NCBI GenBank assembly: GCA_021776795.1
Contig: JAJFFC010000030.1
Location: forward strand, 100,606-164,605
Direction: 5' to 3'
DNA from: Planctomycetota bacterium
Lineage (GTDB): Bacteria > Planctomycetota > UBA1135
DNA length: 64,000 bases
Both the position numbers and the translations under genes were made by a program. The number at the start of each line of letters is the position of its first letter. Within the stretch, counting starts at the first letter, position 1. This document shows positions 10,520 to 21,775 of the stretch, one piece after another. The notes below the pieces were generated by a model that saw only the letters and a program-made list of their open reading frames with translations, did not search any database and had not been told where the DNA came from.

Positions 10520-10558
10520 AAAAGCCCTGCGCTTCCGACTGGGAAGCGCAGGGCTTTT
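10520..10558. terminator. Strong bidirectional intrinsic terminator
   Basis: A perfect 17-base-pair stem (AAAAGCCCTGCGCTTCC with its complement) and a 5-base loop lie between two convergent genes. The A-run on one side and T-run on the other let it stop transcription from both the M20 peptidase and the thioredoxin-like gene. Confidence 0.93.
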
Positions 10559-10574: not shown

Positions 10575-11588
10575 TTAGCGTGAGACGACGGAGGCGACCT
10601 CCACCAACTTGCTCGCGCGTTTGCCAACCGCGTTGCCAGCATTTTCACTTGCGAAATCAGCCAGCTTCTTTTTGGCCTTTTCATCTTTCGGGCTGTCATA
10701 AAGTTTGGACTCGATCTTGGCCAAGTCTTTGGCAGCTTTGATGATTTCCTGCATCTCTTCTGCTTCGAGCTTGGCTTGAATCTCCGCGACCTTTGCGGCC
10801 ATGGCCTCATTTCCCTTCACGCTCTTGCTAAGCGTCTTGAGCTTGGCTTCGGCGTCCATTGGGTAGCCGTTCTCCAACATCCAGGTACTACGAGCCAGTT
10901 GGCTATCGAGGTTTTCCTGGATAGTGATCAGGGCGATTTCCGCAGCTTCGATGACAGCATCGGGCTCTTTGCTTCCTGGCTTGGCCTTGGCCTTTTCGGC
11001 GGCGACCATAGCTTTCGCGAGGTTGCCCTTGGCCATTTCGGAATAAGCCTTGGCGACAGCCTTGGGCGTTCCTTCTGGTGCACCACTGGCCTCCTTCAAC
11101 ATGCGCTCCAGCTCATCTTCGATCTTGCCCTTCATGCTGTTGGAGTTGCCCTTAAGGACAACCTTGCCTTCGGCATCGAGCAGAGCAAAGGCTGGCAATC
11201 CATTGCCGCCAGAGCTGAACAGATAGTCACTGGTCCAGATGGCTTGGTTGCCAAGCCACTTGGCCTTCAACGCCACGTTGACCGCTTGCTCTGGAGTTGC
11301 GTTTTGCGAGTGCACCAACACCACCTGAATGGCGTCGCCGTATTCTTCTTGTAGCTTAATGGCCGCCGGCACGGACGACCCAACACAATACGGTCAGTTG
11401 ATGCCCCAGAAGTCGACCAGGACGGGCTTTCCGCGCAGGTCAGCTTGGCTCTTGACGCCCTGGGTATTGAAGCTCTTCTCACCGAAGGTGTAGTTCGGTG
11501 CATCGCCGATTTGGACCCCGCCTTGGGCGAGGGCTGAGGAAGATAGGACGGCCGCAGCGACAGCCGTGGTGATTGGGTGGAAGCGCAT
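10575..11588 (-). CDS. Thioredoxin-like secreted protein with in-frame TGA at the redox motif; candidate selenoprotein
   Basis: Read as one gene with TGA as selenocysteine, this gives 337 residues. The ATG at 11586-11588 begins a signal peptide (residues 1-22, ending SSSALAQ). A TlpA-like thioredoxin fold follows: strand KPVLVDFWGIN, then TGA at 11394-11396 (residue 65), then PYC. The stop therefore replaces the first Cys of a C-P-Y-C active site. The same frame continues without break through VVLVHSQN and the cis-Pro loop GNGLPAFALLD to a normal stop. The last 200 residues are helical and Lys/Ala-rich. It lies 17 bases downstream of thiE. A hairpin just after the TGA fits a bacterial SECIS. 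The alternative is a pseudogene from a single TGC-to-TGA change. Confidence 0.75.
11361..11380 (-). promoter_or_regulatory. SECIS-like hairpin downstream of the in-frame TGA
   Basis: On the mRNA strand, bases 14-33 after the TGA fold as a lower stem of five pairs (GGUCG with CGGCC, one G-U), a single bulged U on the 5' side, an upper stem of three pairs (CCG with CGG) and a UGC loop. A bulged U three pairs below a short apical loop with a G in its first two bases is the layout recognised by SelB in the E. coli fdhF SECIS. The loop starts 23 bases after the TGA, inside the range known for bacteria. Folding was done by eye. Confidence 0.55.
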
Positions 11589-11605: not shown

Positions 11606-12223
11606 TCAAAGTCGTAATCTGGCAGCCACTTCTTCGGGCCTTTCTGATCCGCAAATGGCACTAGAAACCGCCACACCCACGCGGCTGCCCAGGAGCTCGC
11701 GATTCTCGGTGGTGATACCGCCGATGGCGAGCAGGGGGAGGCGGCAGAACAGGCTGGCAGAGAGCACCGCATCAGGTCCTAGGCCGGCGGTGTAGCCCTT
11801 GGTGGCGGTGGGAAAAGCAGGGCCAAAGCCGAGATAGTCGGCCCAGCCACTATCCTGAGCCGCTTCCATCTGCTCCAGGCTGTGGGTAGACAAGCCAATT
11901 AGCTTGTTTTTGCCTAGGAGTTGCCGCACTTCGCGCGGGGGAAGGTCGTCTTGGCCGACATGAACGCCATCGGCATCACAGGCCAGGGCGACGTCGACCT
12001 GATCGTTGATGATCAGCGGCACACCGGCTTGTCGGCAGCGTGGAGCCACCTCAAGTGCCCAATCCAGAAACGGGGCAGTCGCGAGTTCTTTCTCGCGCAG
12101 CTGGACCAAATCAACGCCACCTTGGAGCGCGCGGTCCAGGACCTCAAGCGGCTCGAGCCGGCATAAGGAGCGGCTCAAGAGCAGGCAGAGGTGAAAACGG
12201 CTGGGGGACAAGGGCGCGGTCAT
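11606..12223 (-). CDS. thiE: Thiamine phosphate synthase
   Basis: A 205-residue TIM-barrel enzyme that joins the thiazole phosphate and HMP pyrophosphate to form thiamine phosphate. Motifs run in the normal order: VDLVQLREKEL (pyrophosphate and pyrimidine binding), LIINDQVDVALACDADGVH and VGQDDLP (Mg-binding Asp residues), GLSTHS, FGPAFPTATK and AIGGIT near the C-terminus. The length is typical of ThiE. No other thiamine genes lie nearby. The downstream thioredoxin-like gene begins 17 bases after its stop, so the two are probably transcribed together. TenI-like paralogues are the main alternative. Confidence 0.88.
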   Translation of the reverse strand: MTAPLSPSRFHLCLLLSRSLCRLEPLEVLDRALQGGVDLVQLREKELATAPFLDWALEVAPRCRQAGVPLIINDQVDVALACDADGVHVGQDDLPPREVRQLLGKNKLIGLSTHSLEQMEAAQDSGWADYLGFGPAFPTATKGYTAGLGPDAVLSASLFCRLPLLAIGGITTENRELLGSRVGVAVSSAICGSERPEEVAARLRL

Positions 12224-12253
12224 GCGCCCTACAGAATAGAAGCTGGGGTTCTA

Positions 12254-12285
12254 GGCCGCGCAGAAGACCAGGGGAATGCGCGGCC
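12254..12285. repeat. Inverted repeat between thiE and the zinc-ribbon gene
   Basis: Eight-base perfect arms (GGCCGCGC and GCGCGGCC) around a 16-base loop, just after the zinc-ribbon stop codon on the minus strand. There is no T-run, so it may be a Rho-assisted terminator or an mRNA-stabilising hairpin. Confidence 0.4.
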
Positions 12286-12291
12286 GAAAAC

Positions 12292-12498
12292 TCAAGAAAC
12301 GCGCTTCGAGCCCTTTTTACGGGCGTCTTTATCCGCCTGCAGGCTGCGCAGGAAGGCACGCTTGTCGGCGGAACTGAACAGACGCACTTTCGCGCCGCAG
12401 CTCACGCAGAAACTGGCTTCTAGGCTTTGGAGGTACCGCACGTAGTCGGTGCAACGGGGGCAGTACTTCTTGTCTTTGTAGTAATCGGTCTGTGGCAT
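12292..12498 (-). CDS. Small zinc-ribbon protein
   Basis: The frame is open from a GTG at 12501, but the ATG one codon later (MPQTDYYKDKK) is taken as start, giving 68 residues. Two CxxC knuckles (CPRC and CVSC) about 20 residues apart should bind one zinc ion. The tail is rich in Lys and Arg (RKKGSKR), which could contact nucleic acid. No specific family is recognised and the function is unknown. It stands alone between queG and thiE on the same strand, with about 175 bases of apparently non-coding sequence upstream. Confidence 0.6.
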   Translation of the reverse strand: MPQTDYYKDKKYCPRCTDYVRYLQSLEASFCVSCGAKVRLFSSADKRAFLRSLQADKDARKKGSKRVS

Positions 12499-12675
12499 CA
12501 CAAACGGAATGGAGGAGGTGGAGGTGAAGGAAAGATCGGCCCGAGGGCTTGACTAACGCTACCCCCAGATACGCTGCCGGGCACCAAGAATTGGGTGTAT
12601 TTTTGGAGAATATGGCCCCCAAAACTGGCGAATACAAGGAATTCGCTTTGTGGACACACCTGTCCTAGGCGACGG

Positions 12676-13806
12676 CTAGCTGCCCAGTTCGCGCCTAATT
12701 TCTAGGAGAACAGTGTCATCCTGTTCTTTCTCTAGGACGCGTTCGAGCGCCCGTTGCTCCCCAATTTTTGATAAAGCCCAGACCGCGTGGCTGCGAACCA
12801 GGGGTTCGGGGTGTTCGCGGGCGGCCCATTCCAAATCCGCCGCGCCACGACCCAAATTGCCGAGAACGACGCAGGCGTTGCGCAACAAACCGGCCCAGCC
12901 GGGGCGTCGCAGTGGGGAACCTGTGAATAGCTTGTGGAAAACGGGCTCCTCGACGTGGAGAAGCTGTTCCAAAGTTGTGAATTCCAATGCTGGGTGCAAT
13001 CCCCAGTCTTCGCTGAAGTCCAAATCACGTGGGCTAAAAGGGCACACCTCTAGGCACAGATCGCAGCCGAAGACCCAGTCCCCCATGGCCTCGCGCCACT
13101 GCAGCGGAATCTCACCACGATTCTCAATCGTGAGATAGGACAGGCAACGGCGGGCGTCGAGCTGATAAGGAGTGGGGAAAGCCTGGGTCGGGCAAATATC
13201 TAGGCAGCGAGTGCAGCTGCCACAGGTGGCTTTGCGCGCGGGGGGTGGCGCCCAATGGGGCAGCACGACGTCGACCAGAAGCTCTCCCAACATGACCCAT
13301 GGCCCATGCTCGGGGTGCAGGAACAAAGTGTTTTTGCCCCTCCAGCCCAGTCCTGCACGCAAGGCCCATTCGCGCTCGAGGACAGGGGCGGCATCGACGG
13401 TGGCGCGGTAGCGGGTGGCGATTCCTTGCGCACGCAGCCGCTTGCCGAGTCGCTCTAGGCGCTTGCCCATGAGTTGGTGGTAATCGCGCCCTAGTGCATA
13501 GCGCGCCACGCGGCCCCCTCCAGCAAAGCCACCGCTTGGTCGGTGATAGGGCAGGGCGAACAGCAAGGCGCCCTCGGTCCAGGGTTTCCACGAACGTAAA
13601 TCAGGACCCAAGGCCACCGCGCGCTCGAGATACCTCATGCTGCCTTGATAGCCCGCATCTAGCCAGGATTGCAGGCGAGTTTGGAGCGCGCTGTCGTGCT
13701 CAGGCAGCGGATTCGCGGGAAGGCAGCCGCGCAGCACGAGACCGACCTCCTCCGCCACTGCGGAGAGGGTTTGTACCTCGCTAGGAATGGGTTCCATGTT
13801 GGGCAT
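12676..13806 (-). CDS. queG: Epoxyqueuosine reductase
   Basis: QueG performs the last step of queuosine synthesis, reducing epoxyqueuosine in tRNA (position 34 of GUN anticodons) with cobalamin and two 4Fe-4S clusters. The 376-residue protein has TVDAAPVLERE with the likely proton donor Asp138, then AGLGWRGKNTL, a first cluster motif with Cys195, 198, 201 and 205, Cys221, and a second with Cys248, 251 and 255 (CDLCLEVCP). A HEAT-like C-terminal region that grips tRNA ends the protein. Length and motif spacing match the family closely. It is divergent from the alpha-2-macroglobulin-like gene. Confidence 0.95.
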   Translation of the reverse strand: MPNMEPIPSEVQTLSAVAEEVGLVLRGCLPANPLPEHDSALQTRLQSWLDAGYQGSMRYLERAVALGPDLRSWKPWTEGALLFALPYHRPSGGFAGGGRVARYALGRDYHQLMGKRLERLGKRLRAQGIATRYRATVDAAPVLEREWALRAGLGWRGKNTLFLHPEHGPWVMLGELLVDVVLPHWAPPPARKATCGSCTRCLDICPTQAFPTPYQLDARRCLSYLTIENRGEIPLQWREAMGDWVFGCDLCLEVCPFSPRDLDFSEDWGLHPALEFTTLEQLLHVEEPVFHKLFTGSPLRRPGWAGLLRNACVVLGNLGRGAADLEWAAREHPEPLVRSHAVWALSKIGEQRALERVLEKEQDDTVLLEIRRELGS

Positions 13807-13909: not shown

Positions 13910-16900
13910 ATGAAACGCTTTTTCGCGCCCCTGCTCCTTGCTTTATGTTTCCTCCTGCCGACGCCCGCCGCGGCGCAATCTGGCATCCAGGACACGCCCG
14001 CTGTGCCGACGGCTTTACGCCAGGCGCTCCTTTCCGGAGATACCACCGCCGCCCTGCAGCTGATTGATCAACTACAAAGTGCCGGCGGTGAGGGCACCGA
14101 TTTCTGGGCATATCTGCGTGGTGTCGTCTTGGAGCAAGAAGGCGACGATCAGGCTGCGGCCGACGCCTTCCAAGCTTTCGCGCGCGACTACCCCGAAAGT
14201 GCATGGCGACGCAAGGCAGCCTTTCATCAGGCCGATGCTCTTTCTTGCTTGGGCAATTGGCAAGCAGCGGAGGCAATCATTGAAGCCGAGGTCAAGGCGT
14301 TGCGCGGGGGCGAGCGCCAAGCAGCCTTGGCGCAGATTTATCTCGAACGCGCAGAAGAGTTGTCGGCACGGCGTGAAGGTTCGGCTTCGTTAGAGCCGCG
14401 CAACCTGGACCGCGCCTTAACGCTATATCGCCAAGCATTGGCCCTGGACTTGCCGCATGATCTGCGCGCCAAAACTTTGGGCCGCGTGGCTTGGTGTGAA
14501 CAAGAGGCAGAACGTTGGCAAGGTGCTGCAGCTTCTTATGTGACTTATCTCAAGGTCAACCCCGATGACGAGCAAGCGCAGTTGGATTTAGGGGAGTGCT
14601 ATTTGCGTAGCGGCAACAAGAGCGAAGCTCGCCAAGTGCTCGAGGACGTGGCCGCCGCCACCGAAGACAGCGAAGTGCAAGCCATGGCCATGTTCATGAT
14701 TGGCCGCGCCTTTGGAGATCGCGCGGAAGAACGGCGGATGGCAGTAGGCGCGTTCCGTCGCTATCTCGAAGCGCATCCTCGGCATACGAAGAGCAGTGCT
14801 GCGCGATTCAATGTCGCACGCCTGCTCGACCACGCCGGAGATTTGGGCGACAGCCTCGACGCCTATCGAGATTTCTTAGTCGCGCCAAAGCCAGAAAGTC
14901 AAGAGATTGAAATTTTGGAGCAAGATCTATCCCTGCGTCGGCGTGCGCTGATGCACATGGCTTCGGTGCAAACGCGTTTAGGTAGGCACCAAGATGCGGC
15001 TGAAACCTATGGCCGTTATGTCACTCTCTACCCGGATGGGCCGGAATGGGCACAGGCGCAAGAGGGGATGGTGAGCGAGGAGTATGCGGTCGGGCGCAAT
15101 GCCTTGCAGCAAAAGCAATGGGATTTGGCGCGCACTAGCTTCACCGCCTTTGCCGCCGCGCATCCGTTGGATCAGCGCAGCAGGGAAGCGGCTTTCTTGT
15201 TGGGTGACATCAACCGCCTGGAAGCCAAGGACAAAGATACCGAAGACCCGGAACGCGTGCGCTTGCTTGGCCAATCTGTTCAGCATTGGAGTCGTTTGGC
15301 AGACAAGTTCCCTGGATCGCCGATCGCATCTCGAGCGCTGTATACCAGCGGCATGGTGTATGAGTTCGACCTGCACGATGTCGAAGCTGCCGTGGAGCAG
15401 TATCGGCGCTGCGATTTTGGCGATTACGCCTATCAAGCGCGGATGCGTTTGGCCGAAATGACTGAGGAGTCGCTTGCCGTGCACACGCCGCGTAGCTGGC
15501 GAACCGACGAGGCAGCACGCCTCAAAGTCGACGCCCGTAATTTGGAAGAGGTCAAGGTTCAGGTGTATGCCTTGGATCTCGAAACCTACTTCCGTAAAGA
15601 GCTGAGGCTCAAAGGTGTGTCCAATCTCGACCTCGACCTGATTGCGGCAGATTTGGAGTACACCTATCGCTTCGATGGGTATCAGCGGTACAAGCCCTTG
15701 GAATCGGAAATCGCGCTGCCAGTCGAGGGTCCAGGAGTCTGGGCGGTTGCCGTCAGCACCGAAGACCAACGTGCCACCACCTTGGTGATACGCAGTGACC
15801 TGGATGTCATTCTGAAGGCTTCCACGGTGGATTTGATTGTCTTTGCCGAAGACCTACGCACGCTGGAACCGGTTCCTGGCGCCACGGTTTTGGTCGCCTT
15901 CCCGCGAGGCGGCGCCGATGGCATGCCACGCATGGTGGAGTTCGTTTGTGGCGAAGATGGCGTCGGTCGCCTGGACCTCAGCGAGCTAGATCTGAACGAC
16001 CCTTCCAACCCAAGGGTTTTGGTCAAAGAGGAACGCGGACTGGCCGCGACTTGGGCAGGCACTTCAGGGCTTTCGGCGCCGCGTTCCTTGCAGCCGCTGT
16101 CGGTATTGGACAGCGATCGCTCGGTCTATGCACCCGGAGCTTCGATTTCTTATCGCGCGATTTTGCGTGATGCACAAGATGGTGCTTGGACCTTCACCCC
16201 AGGCAAGGATTACACGGTGACGTGGCGCGAGCCAGGTGGCCGGGTGCTGTGGAAGGAAAGCAAGACTCTCGATGCCTTTGGCACGCTACATGGCACTCGC
16301 ACTCTCGATGAATCTTCTCCTTTGGGCACTTATCAAATCATCGTGATGGACCGCGACCGCGAAGTGGTGCGGCGCCATGTGCAGGTGCAACGCGTGGAGT
16401 TGCCCAAGATGGAACTCACTTTGGAAAGCGACCGCCCGGTGTATTACCGCGGAGAAGAGATCGAGATCACCTTCCGAGCGCAACGCTTCTATGGCGCGCC
16501 GATTGCGAACACCGCCCTCACCTTGAATACGCCGGACGGTCGCGAGCATCGCTTGCGCACCAACCAAGATGGCGAACTGACTTGGACTTTCGATACGCGC
16601 AGCATGGCACGGAGCGGGCGCCTGGTCTTTAATGCCACCATGCCCAGCGAAGGCGCGTCGACCAGCCACTTTGTGGTGCTCTCCGCCACCGGTTATCGCG
16701 CTTCCTTGCGTTTCGACAAAAACTTGCCGATTGCTGGCCGCTCAGTGCAGGTTGCCCTGCAAACGAATCTTGCCGATGGCAGCCCAGCCTCTCGCAGCAT
16801 GAGTTGGGAACTACAGCGGCGCGATGCCTTTGGCCTTTATGTTCCGGTGGAAGGGCAGAATGGCCAAGCCACGACCGATGACGAGGGATTGGCTTCTTGG

Positions 16901-19900
16901 TCGCTGAGCCCCGAACGCGGTGGCAACTACCGCATGCGCGCTTATGGCGAAGATCGTTTTGGCAATCCGATTGTCACCGCGACCGATGTCTTTGTCTCGG
17001 GCGAAGAGGACCCTCAGAAGTTGCGCTTGTTGAGCGACCTGCGTGAACTCGATGCCGGCAGCATGATGGAACTCGAGGTCCTGAACCGCGCTGCCCCAGG
17101 CTTGGCCTTAGTCACGGTCGAAGGTGGCAAGATTCTGGAATACCACCTGCTGGAAGTGCCTGCTGGCGTCAGCAGTCTCAAGCTTCCCGTGGCCACCTCT
17201 TGGTTCCCGAATGTTTCCGTCGCGATCGCGATGATGGATGACAATCAGTTGTGGCAATCGGCTCATGATTTCCAGATCGAGCGGGGCTTGCAGATTTCGA
17301 TGACGGCTGCCAAGGACATTGTGATGCCCGGCGAGGAAGCCGAAATCACGATTGAAGTGCGTGACCAATTGGGCAATCCGGTGAAAGCTTCGCTGAGTCT
17401 TTCCGCTGTCGATGCCGGACTACTCGCCCAGTATCCCCGTGGCTTAGTCGACTTGGACCAGCTGCCGGCGCAGCTGGCTTGGCGAAGCGCTTCATTGCAA
17501 ACCAACTCCAGTTGTTCTTTCGAATATTCTGGCGTGACGGTGCAATTGGCAGAGGAATTGCTTGCAGAGTTGGAGTTGCAGCAAGCCGAAGAAAAATGGG
17601 CTGAGGGCAGCGATCGAGCTCGTCAAGAGTTGGCTCGCCGCGCGATGCCTCCACCCGCATCCCCATCCACGCCCACGACTCCTGGCGTCATCGCTGGCGG
17701 CCGTTTCCGGGGGGCGGAAGACATGGATGCCTTTGAGCCAGTGGAAGAGATGGAGCTCTCGGAACTTGGTTTCCTCGACGTCGGCGGCGGAGCAGGTGGC
17801 AAATCTGGCGGCCGCGGTGGACGAGGTGGCAAGCGAGGCAAAGCGCGCCTGACTCAAGAGGAAACTCTCGGCCCGGACTCTTCCTTGGCTTACTGGTCGG
17901 CCACGGTGCAGGCCGATGCGCAAGGCCAGGCGGTGGTGCGTTTTGAAATGCCCCAGCGCAGCACGCGCTGGACCTTGGACTGCCGCGGCGTCAGCCAAGA
18001 GGGTTCGCTTGGACAAAGCTCTTTGGAACTCGTGAGCCGCGCAGATTTCTTCGTTGACCTCAGTACTCCGGCGCGATTGCTCGAGGGCGATCGCCCTGGA
18101 TTCCTTGCCACCGTGCATAACCTCAGCGGTCATGCTGGCGAGGTCGAGTTGGAATTGGTGGTCGACGCCGGTGCGCGCCAAGTGGCCAAGCACCAAGTTC
18201 AGATGCCTGCAAACGGAGAGGTACGCGTCATGCTGCATCTTCCCGCTGCCTTGGAAGGAACGAAAGCCGAAGAGGCCGAGCTGCGTTTGTTGGCAACTGC
18301 CTTCTTGGAGGGGGACGCGGAAAGTCCGATTGAACTGCAAGCTTCCTTGCAGCGCCGTCTGCCGATGCAGCCTTGGGGCTTGCCTCGTGTGGATCAAGAA
18401 AGCGGTGTGCTGCAAGGCGCAGGCACCTTAGTGGCCTTGAACTTGCCGAAGGGGCACTACAGTCCAGAGGCGACCTTGCGCATTGACCTCGGTAATAGTG
18501 TCGACACGGTGTTGGTGCGCGAAGCGATTGCCGGCTCGGCTGCCGCCATCGGCCGCTTAAGCACGATTGGTAGCCATCTCATGCCACAAGACTCCACTGT
18601 GCTTGGTCTTGCCACTGAGTTGCAAGGGCGTTTGGCTGTTGCCCAACACTTGGCGCAACTGGAATCCCAAGACGATCGCATGGGAGACCCTATGGCATTG
18701 CGCAGTTTGGCTAGCCGCGACTTATCGATTTTGCTTTCGCTACAAAAGTCCGATGGTGGTTGGGCATGGAGTGGCAGTCGTCGCGAATCGTTTGCCGAGT
18801 CGAGTGCGGCAGCGACAGTCGCCTTGGAAATGGCTCGCAAGCAAGGTCTGGATGTACCTAGTGGTGCCCTGGCGAAGGCCCGGGTGTATCTTAAGCAAGC
18901 CTTGAGCCAAAACCCCAACAATGCCGAAGTCACCGCGCAGCTTTTGGATGCGTTATCGCTCTCCGGCAACGCGGATTTCGGCGTCGCCAATCGCCTGCAC
19001 CGTGATCGCAATCGCTTGTCGTCGGCAGCCTTGGCGCACTTGGCGCGCGCACTTCACCGTCTGAAGAGTACGCCCATGGCCGATGAAATCTTGACCACCA
19101 TGCTCGCTCGTCGTCAGTCGGGCGAAACGCCTTGGAGCGGGAAAGGTGGCGCGGGCCGTTATCGCGCCGATGTCGCGATGGATGCTCTGGCCTTGCTCGC
19201 CGTGATGGAAGTCCGGCCACAAGACAGCGTGGTCGCAACTTTGGAGCAATCGTTGTGGGCCAATCGCCCGTGGCCACAAGGTGGCCCTCATGGCAAGGCG
19301 CTGGTGGCTCTCGCCGCTGCACGCCAAGGCCAAGCCGATGCCCGCAATGTGCGCGTGATGATCAGCATCAATGGGGGAGAAGAGCAAGAGTATTCCCTCA
19401 ATGCCGGCCGTCAGCTGCAACTCTCGACTCCACTGCTCAACGCCACGACCGCGCAAGTGCGGATGTCGGTGAAGGGACAGGGGGCACCTGCCTTCCGCGT
19501 GAGTCTCGAGGGCTTTGACAACAATCCGCAATCACAAGACGTCGGCGGACTTTCCTTTCACCGCGCTTATATGCTGGCACCTGAGCCGATGTACGACGGC
19601 CGTGCGATTCGCACCGGCTTTGGCGTGACCAAGGGCTTAGAAAGTTGGCGCAATACCGTGACCTCTTTGGATTATGGTGGCGTCGCGACGCTGGAAGTCT
19701 TCTATCGCACCGATCGTGGTCTTGGGCGCGAGGTCAACCAAGACTTCTTGGTTCTGGAAATTCCTCTGCCCGCGGGAGCGCAAGTGGTCGAGTCTGGATT
19801 GCAAGGCGATTACTTTGACTATCAAGTCCACGATGGCGTCGCCGTCTTTACGCTTGGGCGTCCAGAGCGCTCCGGAATGATACGTATCCCCTTGCGTGGT

Positions 19901-21775
19901 TTGGTTCCAGGCGAGTACCGATTGCTACCTCCGGTGTTGGCCGATGCCTATGACCCGAGTCACGCCGCGGTCGGCGAGGCCATGAATTTGACCGTGCTGG
20001 ATCCAGGTTTGGCGCGCAGTGATGAATACCGCGCAACTCCCGATGAGTTGTACTACACCGGAATTGCTGCCTTCGATCGCGCAGACTACGACACTGCTTG
20101 GACCATGCTGCGAGCTCTGGAGGAAATGACCACCGGAACTCTACGTGTGGATCAACTGCGCGAGTCGACCCGGCGCCTCCTCACCATGGCCTTGGCCCGT
20201 GAAGATGCTTCGGCGGCGGTCAACGCCTTTGAAGTCATCAAGGAGCGCTTCAGCGACGTCGTTATTGGTTTCGATGAGATCACCGAAGTTGCCGACAGCT
20301 ACCGTGAGCTAGCTGAGTTTGAACGCGCGGCGCGAATTTATCTGGCGATTGCCAGCGAGACCTTCGGCAAAGACTTGAAGGTGGTGGGCGTGCTGGAAGA
20401 TTTGCAGGACTTCCATGGCTCGGACGAACTCATGCTGCGCTTGTGGCAGGAGTATCCAGACTACCCAGCAGTGGTGGAAACGGGCCTGACTTTGGCCGAC
20501 CGTTTGCTGCAGAAGGCTCCTTCGGCACATCAAGATGCCAGTCTGCGTGGCGCACGTCGCGATCGTGCCGTGTTGCTGTTCGAGTCTGTGCAGCAGTTAA
20601 ACCACTTCCTCGCGCTGTATCCGCAGAACCCTTTGGCTGGCGATGCCGCCTTGAACTTGGTCAGCGCATACCTTGCGCTAGAGGATTACGAAACCGCAGC
20701 AACCTTGGGCGCGGAAATGGCCGAACGCTTCCCCGAACCAAAGTTCGCCGACGCCTTTACCTACACCCAAGCGGTGGCAGAGTGGTACCAAGGCAACGAC
20801 ACCAAGGCAGAAACCCTTCTGCAACGCATCGCTGATGCGGAATACCTGCGTGAAGACGGTGGCATCAATGTTTCGGAGAACCGCGACTTAGCTTGGTACA
20901 TCTTGGCGCAGATTCACCACGCCCGTCGAGACTTTAGCGGAGCTGCTGGGTACTACGATCGCGTCGATCGTGTCTTCGCCGACGCTGCCCAAGTGCTTTC
21001 GGGATTCCGCCGTCGCGCTTTGGCTGTCGACGAGATCACCGAAGTGCGTCCAGGGGAAACCGCCATGGTGCCGCTGCACTTCCGCAACCTGGAAGAGGTT
21101 GAGCTGTTGGTCTATCCCGTGGACTTGATGACTCTCTATCTTCGAGAGCGCAGTCTCTCCGGCATCACCGAGGTCAACCTTGCCGGTATCCATCCATTAG
21201 TGGAGCGCACGGTGACTTTGGAAGATGATGGCTCGATGCGCACCCAAGACGTGGAGGTTGCTCTCGACCTTCCCGAAAGCGGCGCCTATCTAGTGATTTG
21301 TCGCGCCAACTCCCTGCACGCTTCGGGCATGGTGCTGGTTTCTGACATGGAGCTAGAAGTCGCCGCCGCCCCAGTGCAGGGGAATGTGCGCGTGCAAGCG
21401 ATTGACCGCGGCGACGGCAGCTACCTCGGCGATGTCGATATCCGTGTCATCGGCGATCACAGCGGACGCCTGGTCCGCGGCCGCACTGACCGCCGTGGTT
21501 TGTTCAGTTCCAATGATGTGTTTGGCGCCGCCACGGTCATCGCGCGTTTCGGTCCTCGGGACTACGCCTTCTACCGCGGTTCGCCTTCGCTTCCCCCGGC
21601 CTTTGCCAATGATCTTCTGCCGGATCAGAGCGCTGGCGTAGAAATGTTGGGTTCGGAGGCCTACTTTGATAACGTCATGCGCTTCAATGGCGTGCAGCAG
21701 GAATCGCGGGCGAAAAATCTGCAAGAGCAGCAGCAAGGCGTTTATCTCGGCGTTTCAGTCGACAAGGTGAAATAG
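13910..21775 (+). CDS. Giant alpha-2-macroglobulin-like protein with TPR arrays at both ends
   Basis: A 2621-residue secreted protein starting with a signal peptide (MKRFFAPLLLALCFLLP, cleavage after AAAQ). Order of parts: TPR repeats (about 30-520), macroglobulin (MG) beta domains (about 530-1240), a Gly/Pro-rich linker (about 1245-1315), the A2M signature region (SSLAYWSATVQADAQGQ... with WTLDCRG), an alpha/alpha toroid-like thioester domain (about 1520-1830), a receptor-like beta domain, more TPRs (about 2040-2350), and a last MG-like domain. The Cys-x-Glu-Gln thioester is absent; the equivalent stretch reads IAGSAAAIGRLST. It therefore resembles the YfaS type that lacks covalent trapping. 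Likely a periplasmic protease trap or envelope scaffold. Confidence 0.85.
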   Translation: MKRFFAPLLLALCFLLPTPAAAQSGIQDTPAVPTALRQALLSGDTTAALQLIDQLQSAGGEGTDFWAYLRGVVLEQEGDDQAAADAFQAFARDYPESAWRRKAAFHQADALSCLGNWQAAEAIIEAEVKALRGGERQAALAQIYLERAEELSARREGSASLEPRNLDRALTLYRQALALDLPHDLRAKTLGRVAWCEQEAERWQGAAASYVTYLKVNPDDEQAQLDLGECYLRSGNKSEARQVLEDVAAATEDSEVQAMAMFMIGRAFGDRAEERRMAVGAFRRYLEAHPRHTKSSAARFNVARLLDHAGDLGDSLDAYRDFLVAPKPESQEIEILEQDLSLRRRALMHMASVQTRLGRHQDAAETYGRYVTLYPDGPEWAQAQEGMVSEEYAVGRNALQQKQWDLARTSFTAFAAAHPLDQRSREAAFLLGDINRLEAKDKDTEDPERVRLLGQSVQHWSRLADKFPGSPIASRALYTSGMVYEFDLHDVEAAVEQYRRCDFGDYAYQARMRLAEMTEESLAVHTPRSWRTDEAARLKVDARNLEEVKVQVYALDLETYFRKELRLKGVSNLDLDLIAADLEYTYRFDGYQRYKPLESEIALPVEGPGVWAVAVSTEDQRATTLVIRSDLDVILKASTVDLIVFAEDLRTLEPVPGATVLVAFPRGGADGMPRMVEFVCGEDGVGRLDLSELDLNDPSNPRVLVKEERGLAATWAGTSGLSAPRSLQPLSVLDSDRSVYAPGASISYRAILRDAQDGAWTFTPGKDYTVTWREPGGRVLWKESKTLDAFGTLHGTRTLDESSPLGTYQIIVMDRDREVVRRHVQVQRVELPKMELTLESDRPVYYRGEEIEITFRAQRFYGAPIANTALTLNTPDGREHRLRTNQDGELTWTFDTRSMARSGRLVFNATMPSEGASTSHFVVLSATGYRASLRFDKNLPIAGRSVQVALQTNLADGSPASRSMSWELQRRDAFGLYVPVEGQNGQATTDDEGLASWSLSPERGGNYRMRAYGEDRFGNPIVTATDVFVSGEEDPQKLRLLSDLRELDAGSMMELEVLNRAAPGLALVTVEGGKILEYHLLEVPAGVSSLKLPVATSWFPNVSVAIAMMDDNQLWQSAHDFQIERGLQISMTAAKDIVMPGEEAEITIEVRDQLGNPVKASLSLSAVDAGLLAQYPRGLVDLDQLPAQLAWRSASLQTNSSCSFEYSGVTVQLAEELLAELELQQAEEKWAEGSDRARQELARRAMPPPASPSTPTTPGVIAGGRFRGAEDMDAFEPVEEMELSELGFLDVGGGAGGKSGGRGGRGGKRGKARLTQEETLGPDSSLAYWSATVQADAQGQAVVRFEMPQRSTRWTLDCRGVSQEGSLGQSSLELVSRADFFVDLSTPARLLEGDRPGFLATVHNLSGHAGEVELELVVDAGARQVAKHQVQMPANGEVRVMLHLPAALEGTKAEEAELRLLATAFLEGDAESPIELQASLQRRLPMQPWGLPRVDQESGVLQGAGTLVALNLPKGHYSPEATLRIDLGNSVDTVLVREAIAGSAAAIGRLSTIGSHLMPQDSTVLGLATELQGRLAVAQHLAQLESQDDRMGDPMALRSLASRDLSILLSLQKSDGGWAWSGSRRESFAESSAAATVALEMARKQGLDVPSGALAKARVYLKQALSQNPNNAEVTAQLLDALSLSGNADFGVANRLHRDRNRLSSAALAHLARALHRLKSTPMADEILTTMLARRQSGETPWSGKGGAGRYRADVAMDALALLAVMEVRPQDSVVATLEQSLWANRPWPQGGPHGKALVALAAARQGQADARNVRVMISINGGEEQEYSLNAGRQLQLSTPLLNATTAQVRMSVKGQGAPAFRVSLEGFDNNPQSQDVGGLSFHRAYMLAPEPMYDGRAIRTGFGVTKGLESWRNTVTSLDYGGVATLEVFYRTDRGLGREVNQDFLVLEIPLPAGAQVVESGLQGDYFDYQVHDGVAVFTLGRPERSGMIRIPLRGLVPGEYRLLPPVLADAYDPSHAAVGEAMNLTVLDPGLARSDEYRATPDELYYTGIAAFDRADYDTAWTMLRALEEMTTGTLRVDQLRESTRRLLTMALAREDASAAVNAFEVIKERFSDVVIGFDEITEVADSYRELAEFERAARIYLAIASETFGKDLKVVGVLEDLQDFHGSDELMLRLWQEYPDYPAVVETGLTLADRLLQKAPSAHQDASLRGARRDRAVLLFESVQQLNHFLALYPQNPLAGDAALNLVSAYLALEDYETAATLGAEMAERFPEPKFADAFTYTQAVAEWYQGNDTKAETLLQRIADAEYLREDGGINVSENRDLAWYILAQIHHARRDFSGAAGYYDRVDRVFADAAQVLSGFRRRALAVDEITEVRPGETAMVPLHFRNLEEVELLVYPVDLMTLYLRERSLSGITEVNLAGIHPLVERTVTLEDDGSMRTQDVEVALDLPESGAYLVICRANSLHASGMVLVSDMELEVAAAPVQGNVRVQAIDRGDGSYLGDVDIRVIGDHSGRLVRGRTDRRGLFSSNDVFGAATVIARFGPRDYAFYRGSPSLPPAFANDLLPDQSAGVEMLGSEAYFDNVMRFNGVQQESRAKNLQEQQQGVYLGVSVDKVK

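Follow-up and report, generated by a model that had tools for sequence, protein, structure and literature searches.

A thioredoxin-like gene interrupted by a single TGA

We analysed a stretch of 64,000 nucleotides (the window) from the genome of a Planctomycetota bacterium (GenBank assembly GCA_021776795.1, contig JAJFFC010000030.1, positions 100,606 to 164,605 of the forward strand; coordinates below are those of the window), focusing on a candidate thioredoxin-like selenoprotein gene. On the minus strand, positions 10575-11588 form one frame of 337 residues, from ATG to TAA, broken by a single TGA that we translated as a residue (U, selenocysteine [Sec]). The translation reads M...KPVLVDFWGIN-U65-PYC...VVSR*, with zero further stops; the TGA is codon 65 (11394-11396), the first position of a U-P-Y-C motif, with the strand KPVLVDFWGIN before it and 272 codons, beginning PYC, after it. 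The original prediction, made from the letters alone, had described two open frames in the same frame parted by this one TGA, more than 260 further residues past it, and a TGA exactly at the nucleophilic cysteine (Cys) of a CxxC motif; all of this was borne out, by the translation and by the Cys found there in homologues, and the strand, which it had not named, is minus. The features of the gene, all on the minus strand, are as follows (pLDDT, predicted local distance difference test).

10575..11588, minus strand: whole predicted selenoprotein gene, 337 residues with TGA as Sec (translation; relatives run across the TGA)
11394..11396, minus strand: predicted selenocysteine codon 65 (TGA) of the U-P-Y-C motif (same column in 29 of 29 relatives)
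11523..11588, minus strand: likely signal peptide, residues 1-22, with an AxA-type site (judged by eye; residues 1-21 have pLDDT <50)
11361..11380, minus strand: predicted bacterial selenocysteine insertion sequence (bSECIS) hairpin, 7-bp stem GGTCGTC/GGCGGCC, loop CGTGCC at 11368-11373 (folding, covariation)
11085..11510, minus strand: thioredoxin/redoxin-like domain, residues 27-168
11193..11195, minus strand: codon of Pro132 (GLP), located where thioredoxins have their cis-Pro loop (a proline without variation in alignments A3, A4 and A6)
10590..11066, minus strand: C-terminal helical domain of eight helices, residues 175-333 (predicted structure)

The window holds 142 TGAs with at least 30 open codons before and at least 60 after them, and xxC follows in eight. 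The other seven of these eight lie inside or opposite larger open reading frames (ORFs) in a different frame. The open frame across the TGA of codon 65 is not a product of chance, because 29 relatives cross the TGA at 31-54% identity over nearly their full length.

The predicted structure is one compact domain spanning the TGA, and residues 1-21 are its sole stretch with pLDDT below 50. Redoxin (PF08534) was matched above its curated cut-off (35.8 bits vs. 26.6, computed with C placed at position 65). The redox motif starts the first long helix and the loop proline is conserved, as expected of a thioredoxin fold; of the cis-Pro loop claimed in the original prediction, the proline stands, as the invariant Pro132, while the cis geometry itself is assigned by position only. 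The best structural matches (3eyt, 3lor, the DsbE-like 3gl3, and ResA) are thioredoxin-like and titled disulfide oxidoreductases or isomerases. Scores stayed below the NCBIfam cut-offs for the ResA model NF002854 (25.9 bits vs. 170) and for the Omp28-related selenoprotein NF045500 (21.6 bits vs. 200; E 1.2e-4, residues 57-130 only). Predicted alone, the C-terminal domain reached a pLDDT of 95.5, and a fold search of the PDB gave no confident match to it, which is no evidence of a new fold. We describe the protein as a thioredoxin domain of ResA/TlpA-like type that continues into a helical domain and is likely exported.

Conservation of the TGA in relatives

We searched 61 genomes for relatives, the source genome included, and 53 gave a match at E <= 1e-3; among the 34 matches at E <= 1e-20 (the window gene included), 32 carried a TGA and 2 did not. 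We then fetched the top match from 30 genomes, one per genome, the window gene being one of them, which leaves 29 relatives (31-54% identical to the window gene; 29% for the most distant in a 22-row alignment). All 29 (30/30 with the window gene) hold a single internal TGA in one alignment column, always as U-x-x-C, and none of the 29 has a TAA or TAG inside the frame. This argues against a private mutation in a decaying gene, which the original prediction had named as one of two outcomes that would undo it. The alignment at position 65 that it had proposed likewise placed U65 opposite TGA in the 29 relatives and opposite Cys in five full-length database proteins (P0015, P0025, P0029, P0031 and P0033). 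A further database protein, P0034, has no Cys at the aligned position; it is full-length and has lost both active-site residues (FWGTQAAALDD) while keeping the remainder of the protein. Longer loci from named records, most of them from the same genomes, gave the same picture, with one TGA, in the motif, in 14/14. The structure and search alignments were built without L057, which holds an X, and search profile A6 without C-terminal fragments.

In a sample of 294 Planctomycetota genomes, the source genome included, thioredoxin-plus-helix relatives (E <= 1e-20) were found in 100. Among the 150 matches listed for this sample, 119 have at least one TGA, 29 have no stop and 2 have TAA or TAG only; among those listed above 160 bits, 21/23 have a TGA (the window gene included). 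These stop counts were made by hand, and the place of the TGA was read just in the fetched sequences. We found no relatives in plasmid records and none in viral contigs.

A covarying hairpin downstream of the UGA

A hairpin begins 13 bases 3' of the UGA, its loop 20 bases past it (17 in L035 and L036, which have one codon fewer), and the loop, CGUGCC, is nearly fixed across the family. According to the bSECIS rule (PMC13188914), the loop has 3-9 nt, the stem 4-16 bp, a G stands among the first two loop bases, and the distance from the UGA is 16-37 nt; the window hairpin agrees with it (loop 6 nt, stem 7 bp, 20 nt from the UGA).

Across 30 sequences, all seven stem pairs showed two-sided change (1/500 shuffles as high), standard pairs filled 88.1% of 210 pair cells vs. 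72.0% in shuffles (0/500 as high), and 24 cells were changed on both sides vs. 5.4 (0/500 as high). The covariation score was 0.417 vs. 0.150 in shuffles, and 0.048-0.163 with the partner slid. Six of the pairs, the inner ones, were also recovered by RNAalifold without prompting. The hairpin is not accounted for by codon usage, because the mean stem length (6.83) exceeds that of synonymous shuffles (4.90; 0/500 joint means above 6.0). In a strict register, with GTG in the loop, the hairpin was found in 25/30 sequences vs. 1.1% of 6000 synonymous shuffles, and at 8/8684 other codon places of the same genes; the loop valine codon is GTG in 30/30, vs. 212/672 of the other valine codons in these genes. 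It is the tests of covariation and of register that carry the power here; the loose bSECIS rule has little.

Several observations weigh against a hairpin-directed recoding. The loose bSECIS rule, which 30/30 sequences follow, also fits 62% of the synonymous shuffles and 66% of the other positions, and many single sequences do no better than their own synonymous shuffles. Nineteen of 500 shuffles reached further pair types as well, and a +1 slide also gives seven pairs with two-sided change, at 49.5% paired. Five of the 30 sequences depart from the strict register, L037-L039 with a 7-base loop, L040 with a 3-base loop and L049 with a short stem, and L042 and L043 have only four contiguous pairs. 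Distant TGA subfamilies, including L052 of the source genome, carry GTC, ATC or other codons at the GTG place, and have other possible hairpins. Two Cys relatives also lack the GTG (GTC CCC in L069, ATC in L070), which is a weak control because distant TGA forms lack it too, and L069 can still form another G+C-rich hairpin. No Rfam family was matched over cut-off anywhere in the window, and the TGA region gave only a chance-level match to a long non-coding RNA. Finally, one genome (G015) has a TGA form and no match to selA, a point to which we return below.

A second subfamily (L143-L147, L149, L150 and the first two genes of L151) has a fixed TGY GTG AAG GCG TTG CCT TC after the TGA, which is perhaps a SECIS type of its own.

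Selenocysteine machinery and other TGA genes

The genome (3.26 Mb in 31 contigs, 89% complete) holds the selenocysteine machinery for which the original prediction had proposed a search, with every component above its cut-off: selA (440 bits vs. 268), selB (273 vs. 242, a frame of 685 residues in which the C-terminal end of the model is matched too), selD (288 vs. 125) and tRNA-Sec (70.8 vs. 47; ARAGORN also calls a tRNA-SeC, anticodon tca). Three of the four, selA, selD and tRNA-Sec, lie within 7 kb on contig C4. Among the 61 genomes, selA was matched in 59 (the source genome included) and over cut-off in 57. Both genomes with no selA match (G015 and G022) have selB and tRNA-Sec over cut-off; of the two with selA under cut-off, both have tRNA-Sec over cut-off and one (G010, but not G019) also selB. 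These four cases likely reflect assembly gaps.

In seven genes of this genome besides the window gene, a redox-active position is encoded by an in-frame TGA.

Outside the window: L010, L089, L091, L104/L052, L105/L053, L109 and L152, the other TGA genes of the source genome

They encode SelD, two peroxiredoxins, of Bcp-like (TPGU) and AhpC-like (FVUPSE) type, and four thioredoxin-like proteins, of which two are further thioredoxin-plus-helix members (WUGPC) and the others carry WUPPC and PGUGPC. The in-frame TGA of selD sits where SelD often has Sec. With the window gene there are thus at least eight such genes. This is a lower bound: the searches covered Redoxin, AhpC-TSA, the window protein and the Sec machinery, and those with Redoxin and AhpC-TSA do not list the window gene itself. 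The organism looks selenoprotein-rich.

Alternative explanations and proposed mechanism

The recoding of the UGA put forward in the original prediction is supported by the machinery, by the TGA in 29/29 relatives and by the covarying SECIS-like hairpin. From these sequence comparisons we are close to certain that the in-frame UGA, at the nucleophile place of U-x-x-C, would be decoded as selenocysteine, and we hold it highly probable that the locus as a whole is best explained as a thioredoxin-like selenoprotein gene with a UGA decoded as Sec under the probable direction of the hairpin.

To two alternatives we give hardly any weight. In a decaying pseudogene, or through a sequencing error, the TGA would be a nonsense change of a TGT or TGC Cys codon and the protein would be truncated; a single substitution would suffice, and Cys forms do exist in the family. 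Against this, the 29 relatives share the TGA column without TAA or TAG in the frame, the downstream frame is conserved (a database neighbour is 91% identical over 265 residues) and the hairpin covaries. We rejected this explanation on the conservation of the TGA in relatives. Beyond the open frame, nothing favours a genome-wide reassignment of TGA (as in codes 4 or 25) or its decoding through a general suppressor, and the chance of that seems to us just as negligible. TGA is an ordinary stop in the window too, because 7/37 main ORFs (listed by hand) end with it, including thiE, whose stop lies 17 bases upstream of the gene; this led us to reject reassignment. Moreover, the eight TGA genes that we read in this genome all have their TGA at a redox-active position.

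A third alternative divides the locus into two proteins, a short exported peptide ending at the TGA and a 265-residue protein that restarts at the hairpin-loop GTG, with the hairpin regulating initiation. Two database pieces (P0002 and P0006) do begin at the loop codon, and the loop GTG is fixed in 30/30; a SECIS loop, however, would need a fixed GTG just as much. Such a split would cut the thioredoxin fold just past the active site, through what is predicted to be one compact domain, and the second piece would have neither signal peptide nor redox motif, whereas the Cys relatives P0015, P0025, P0029, P0031 and P0033 are single uninterrupted frames. We consider the two-protein arrangement very improbable and rejected it on the continuity of the fold and on these uninterrupted relatives. 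It is also possible, though we think it unlikely, that Sec is inserted and the enzyme is peroxidase-like (redoxin/GPx-type) rather than a disulfide reductase. The best structural matches, titled as they are, speak against this, as does the U-x-x-C motif, whose resolving Cys is close by, an arrangement shared with TlpA/ResA.

For the selenoprotein that we favour, a periplasmic thiol/selenol reductase role seems somewhat more probable than not, judged from the fold and the motif only. The conserved hairpin 13 bases 3' of the UGA would probably direct Sec decoding, with SelB and Sec-tRNA reading the hairpin and inserting Sec65, and the N-terminal signal would send the protein to the periplasm. 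There, Sec65 may attack an oxidised substrate, which could be a disulfide, a peroxide or a sulfoxide; Cys68 would then resolve the bond, the part that Cys plays in reductases of ResA/TlpA type, and the C-terminal helical domain probably docks a partner.

Gene neighbourhood

The start codon of the selenoprotein gene lies 17 bases past the stop of thiE (11606-12223), and the order queG - thiE - selenoprotein gene - converging M20 peptidase gene is kept among close relatives. These neighbours (queG, thiE and the M20 peptidase gene) gave no clue to function. The remaining features near the gene are as follows.

10520..10558, minus strand: terminator-like hairpin in the gap between the 3' end of the gene and the M20 peptidase gene that converges on it (perfect stem of 17 bp with a T-rich end; the 67-base stretch around it folds at -39 kcal/mol)
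11606..13806, minus strand: two genes that precede the selenoprotein gene, queG-like and thiE (gene order shared with close relatives)
13910..21775, plus strand: ORF of 2621 amino acids with alpha-2-macroglobulin and TPR domains

Annotation and relation to known selenoproteins

A database protein search that scored the 7999 candidates with most shared words found 46 proteins. The 13 closest of the scored candidates are pieces of 265-270 residues with no domain assigned, called 'hypothetical protein' where named; one piece is 91% identical to the window protein over 265 residues, and P0002 and P0006 begin VPAAIKLQ, with the SECIS-loop valine as their first residue. The expectation that an ordinary gene finder would split or truncate this gene proved sound, in that the closest database pieces among the candidates scored begin after the UGA and lack the active site.

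Thioredoxin-fold UxxC selenoproteins were already known, as the original prediction had stated. UxxC redoxin-type proteins are listed in PMC2398784, PMC9312934 (a 2022 review) and PMC13188914 (a 2026 review, as 'Redoxin family protein', PF08534). The first of these, the Global Ocean Sampling (GOS) study, has them as 'Prx-like 3' (pfam08534), with 68 selenoprotein sequences vs. 2,608 Cys forms, and flags their match to the Pfam family as weak (E > 0.001). The window protein shares with them the Pfam family (Redoxin) and the placement of Sec first in the motif; this comparison of the window family with the redoxin type (HEU0032618.1 and MAK15852.1 of the reviews) is one of descriptions. The window family has a C-terminal helical domain and a spread across Planctomycetota, neither of which is mentioned for the UxxC redoxin type in the portions of PMC13188914 and PMC2398784 drawn on here. 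Moreover, 'Prx-like 3' is mostly Cys, whereas TGA is the majority form among the matches listed for the window family. From ResA, TlpA and DsbE (CcmG) the window protein differs in falling below every listed NCBIfam cut-off, in having Sec in place of Cys and in its extra helical domain. The Omp28-related NF045500 (GOS_C in PMC13188914) is likewise a UxxC selenoprotein, and the window protein matches it weakly and over residues 57-130 only.

Within the phylum, the planctomycetes P1 and P2 from Porphyra have Sec machinery and putative selenoproteins (PMC4807772). The machinery is common to them and the source genome; the part of that paper drawn on here discusses formate and formylmethanofuran dehydrogenases. 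A full-text literature search, which reached articles but not supplementary tables, found no paper on this family in Planctomycetota, and the stem 'planctomycet' is absent from the main texts of PMC13188914, PMC9312934, PMC5029168, PMC12013277 and PMC2398784. As far as its sequence tells, the window gene is a member of the already known UxxC redoxin-type selenoproteins, poorly annotated, with a broad family behind it.

Sec and Cys forms in the family

Cys forms are scattered among the TGA forms. We placed the two on a midpoint-rooted tree of 56 rows (47 Sec, 8 Cys and 1 neither; L072, in which no motif was found, was left out). The Sec label needs seven changes, five of them forced by well-supported branches, and the Cys label six, at least five of them so forced. 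Clustering of the labels is weak, with counts as low in 41/500 shuffles for Sec, 21/500 for Cys and 3/200 for all three states. Repeated loss of Sec would be the simpler reading, we infer, Sec being so dominant; the direction from Sec to Cys keeps this status because the root is a midpoint only and the labels are weakly clustered.

At ten places in nine other genomes, family members are adjacent to one another, in groups of two or three (the ten were picked from the phylum-sample matches, which also hold others, such as G121:C180). Nine of these sets (L142-L150) have one TGA form beside one form with Cys at the same position, and the tenth (L151) has a TGA in all three genes.

We see an even chance that Planctomycetota hold a large family of secreted thioredoxin-plus-helical-domain proteins in which Sec is ancestral, which is spread phylum-wide, often in multiple copies or as neighbouring Sec/Cys pairs, in which Sec was lost to Cys repeatedly and independently, and which was missed since gene callers restart at the SECIS-loop GTG. 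Standard annotation does miss the gene, the closest entries among the candidates scored being fragments of some 265 residues that lack the active site. Among the matches listed for this family, Sec forms are commoner than Cys forms (a TGA in 119/150), unlike in the overall count of the GOS study, where Cys homologues far outnumber selenoproteins (PMC2398784). The family also offers closely related Sec and Cys enzymes, some adjoining in one genome, with which to ask what Sec buys. As for the organism, six selenoproteins are the threshold for a 'selenoprotein-rich' organism in PMC5029168, which, in the part drawn on here, names three phyla as such, Planctomycetes not among them; with at least eight TGA genes at redox-active positions, the genome passes this threshold. 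If Sec is indeed ancestral in the family, the order to which this genome belongs would be a selenoprotein-rich lineage.
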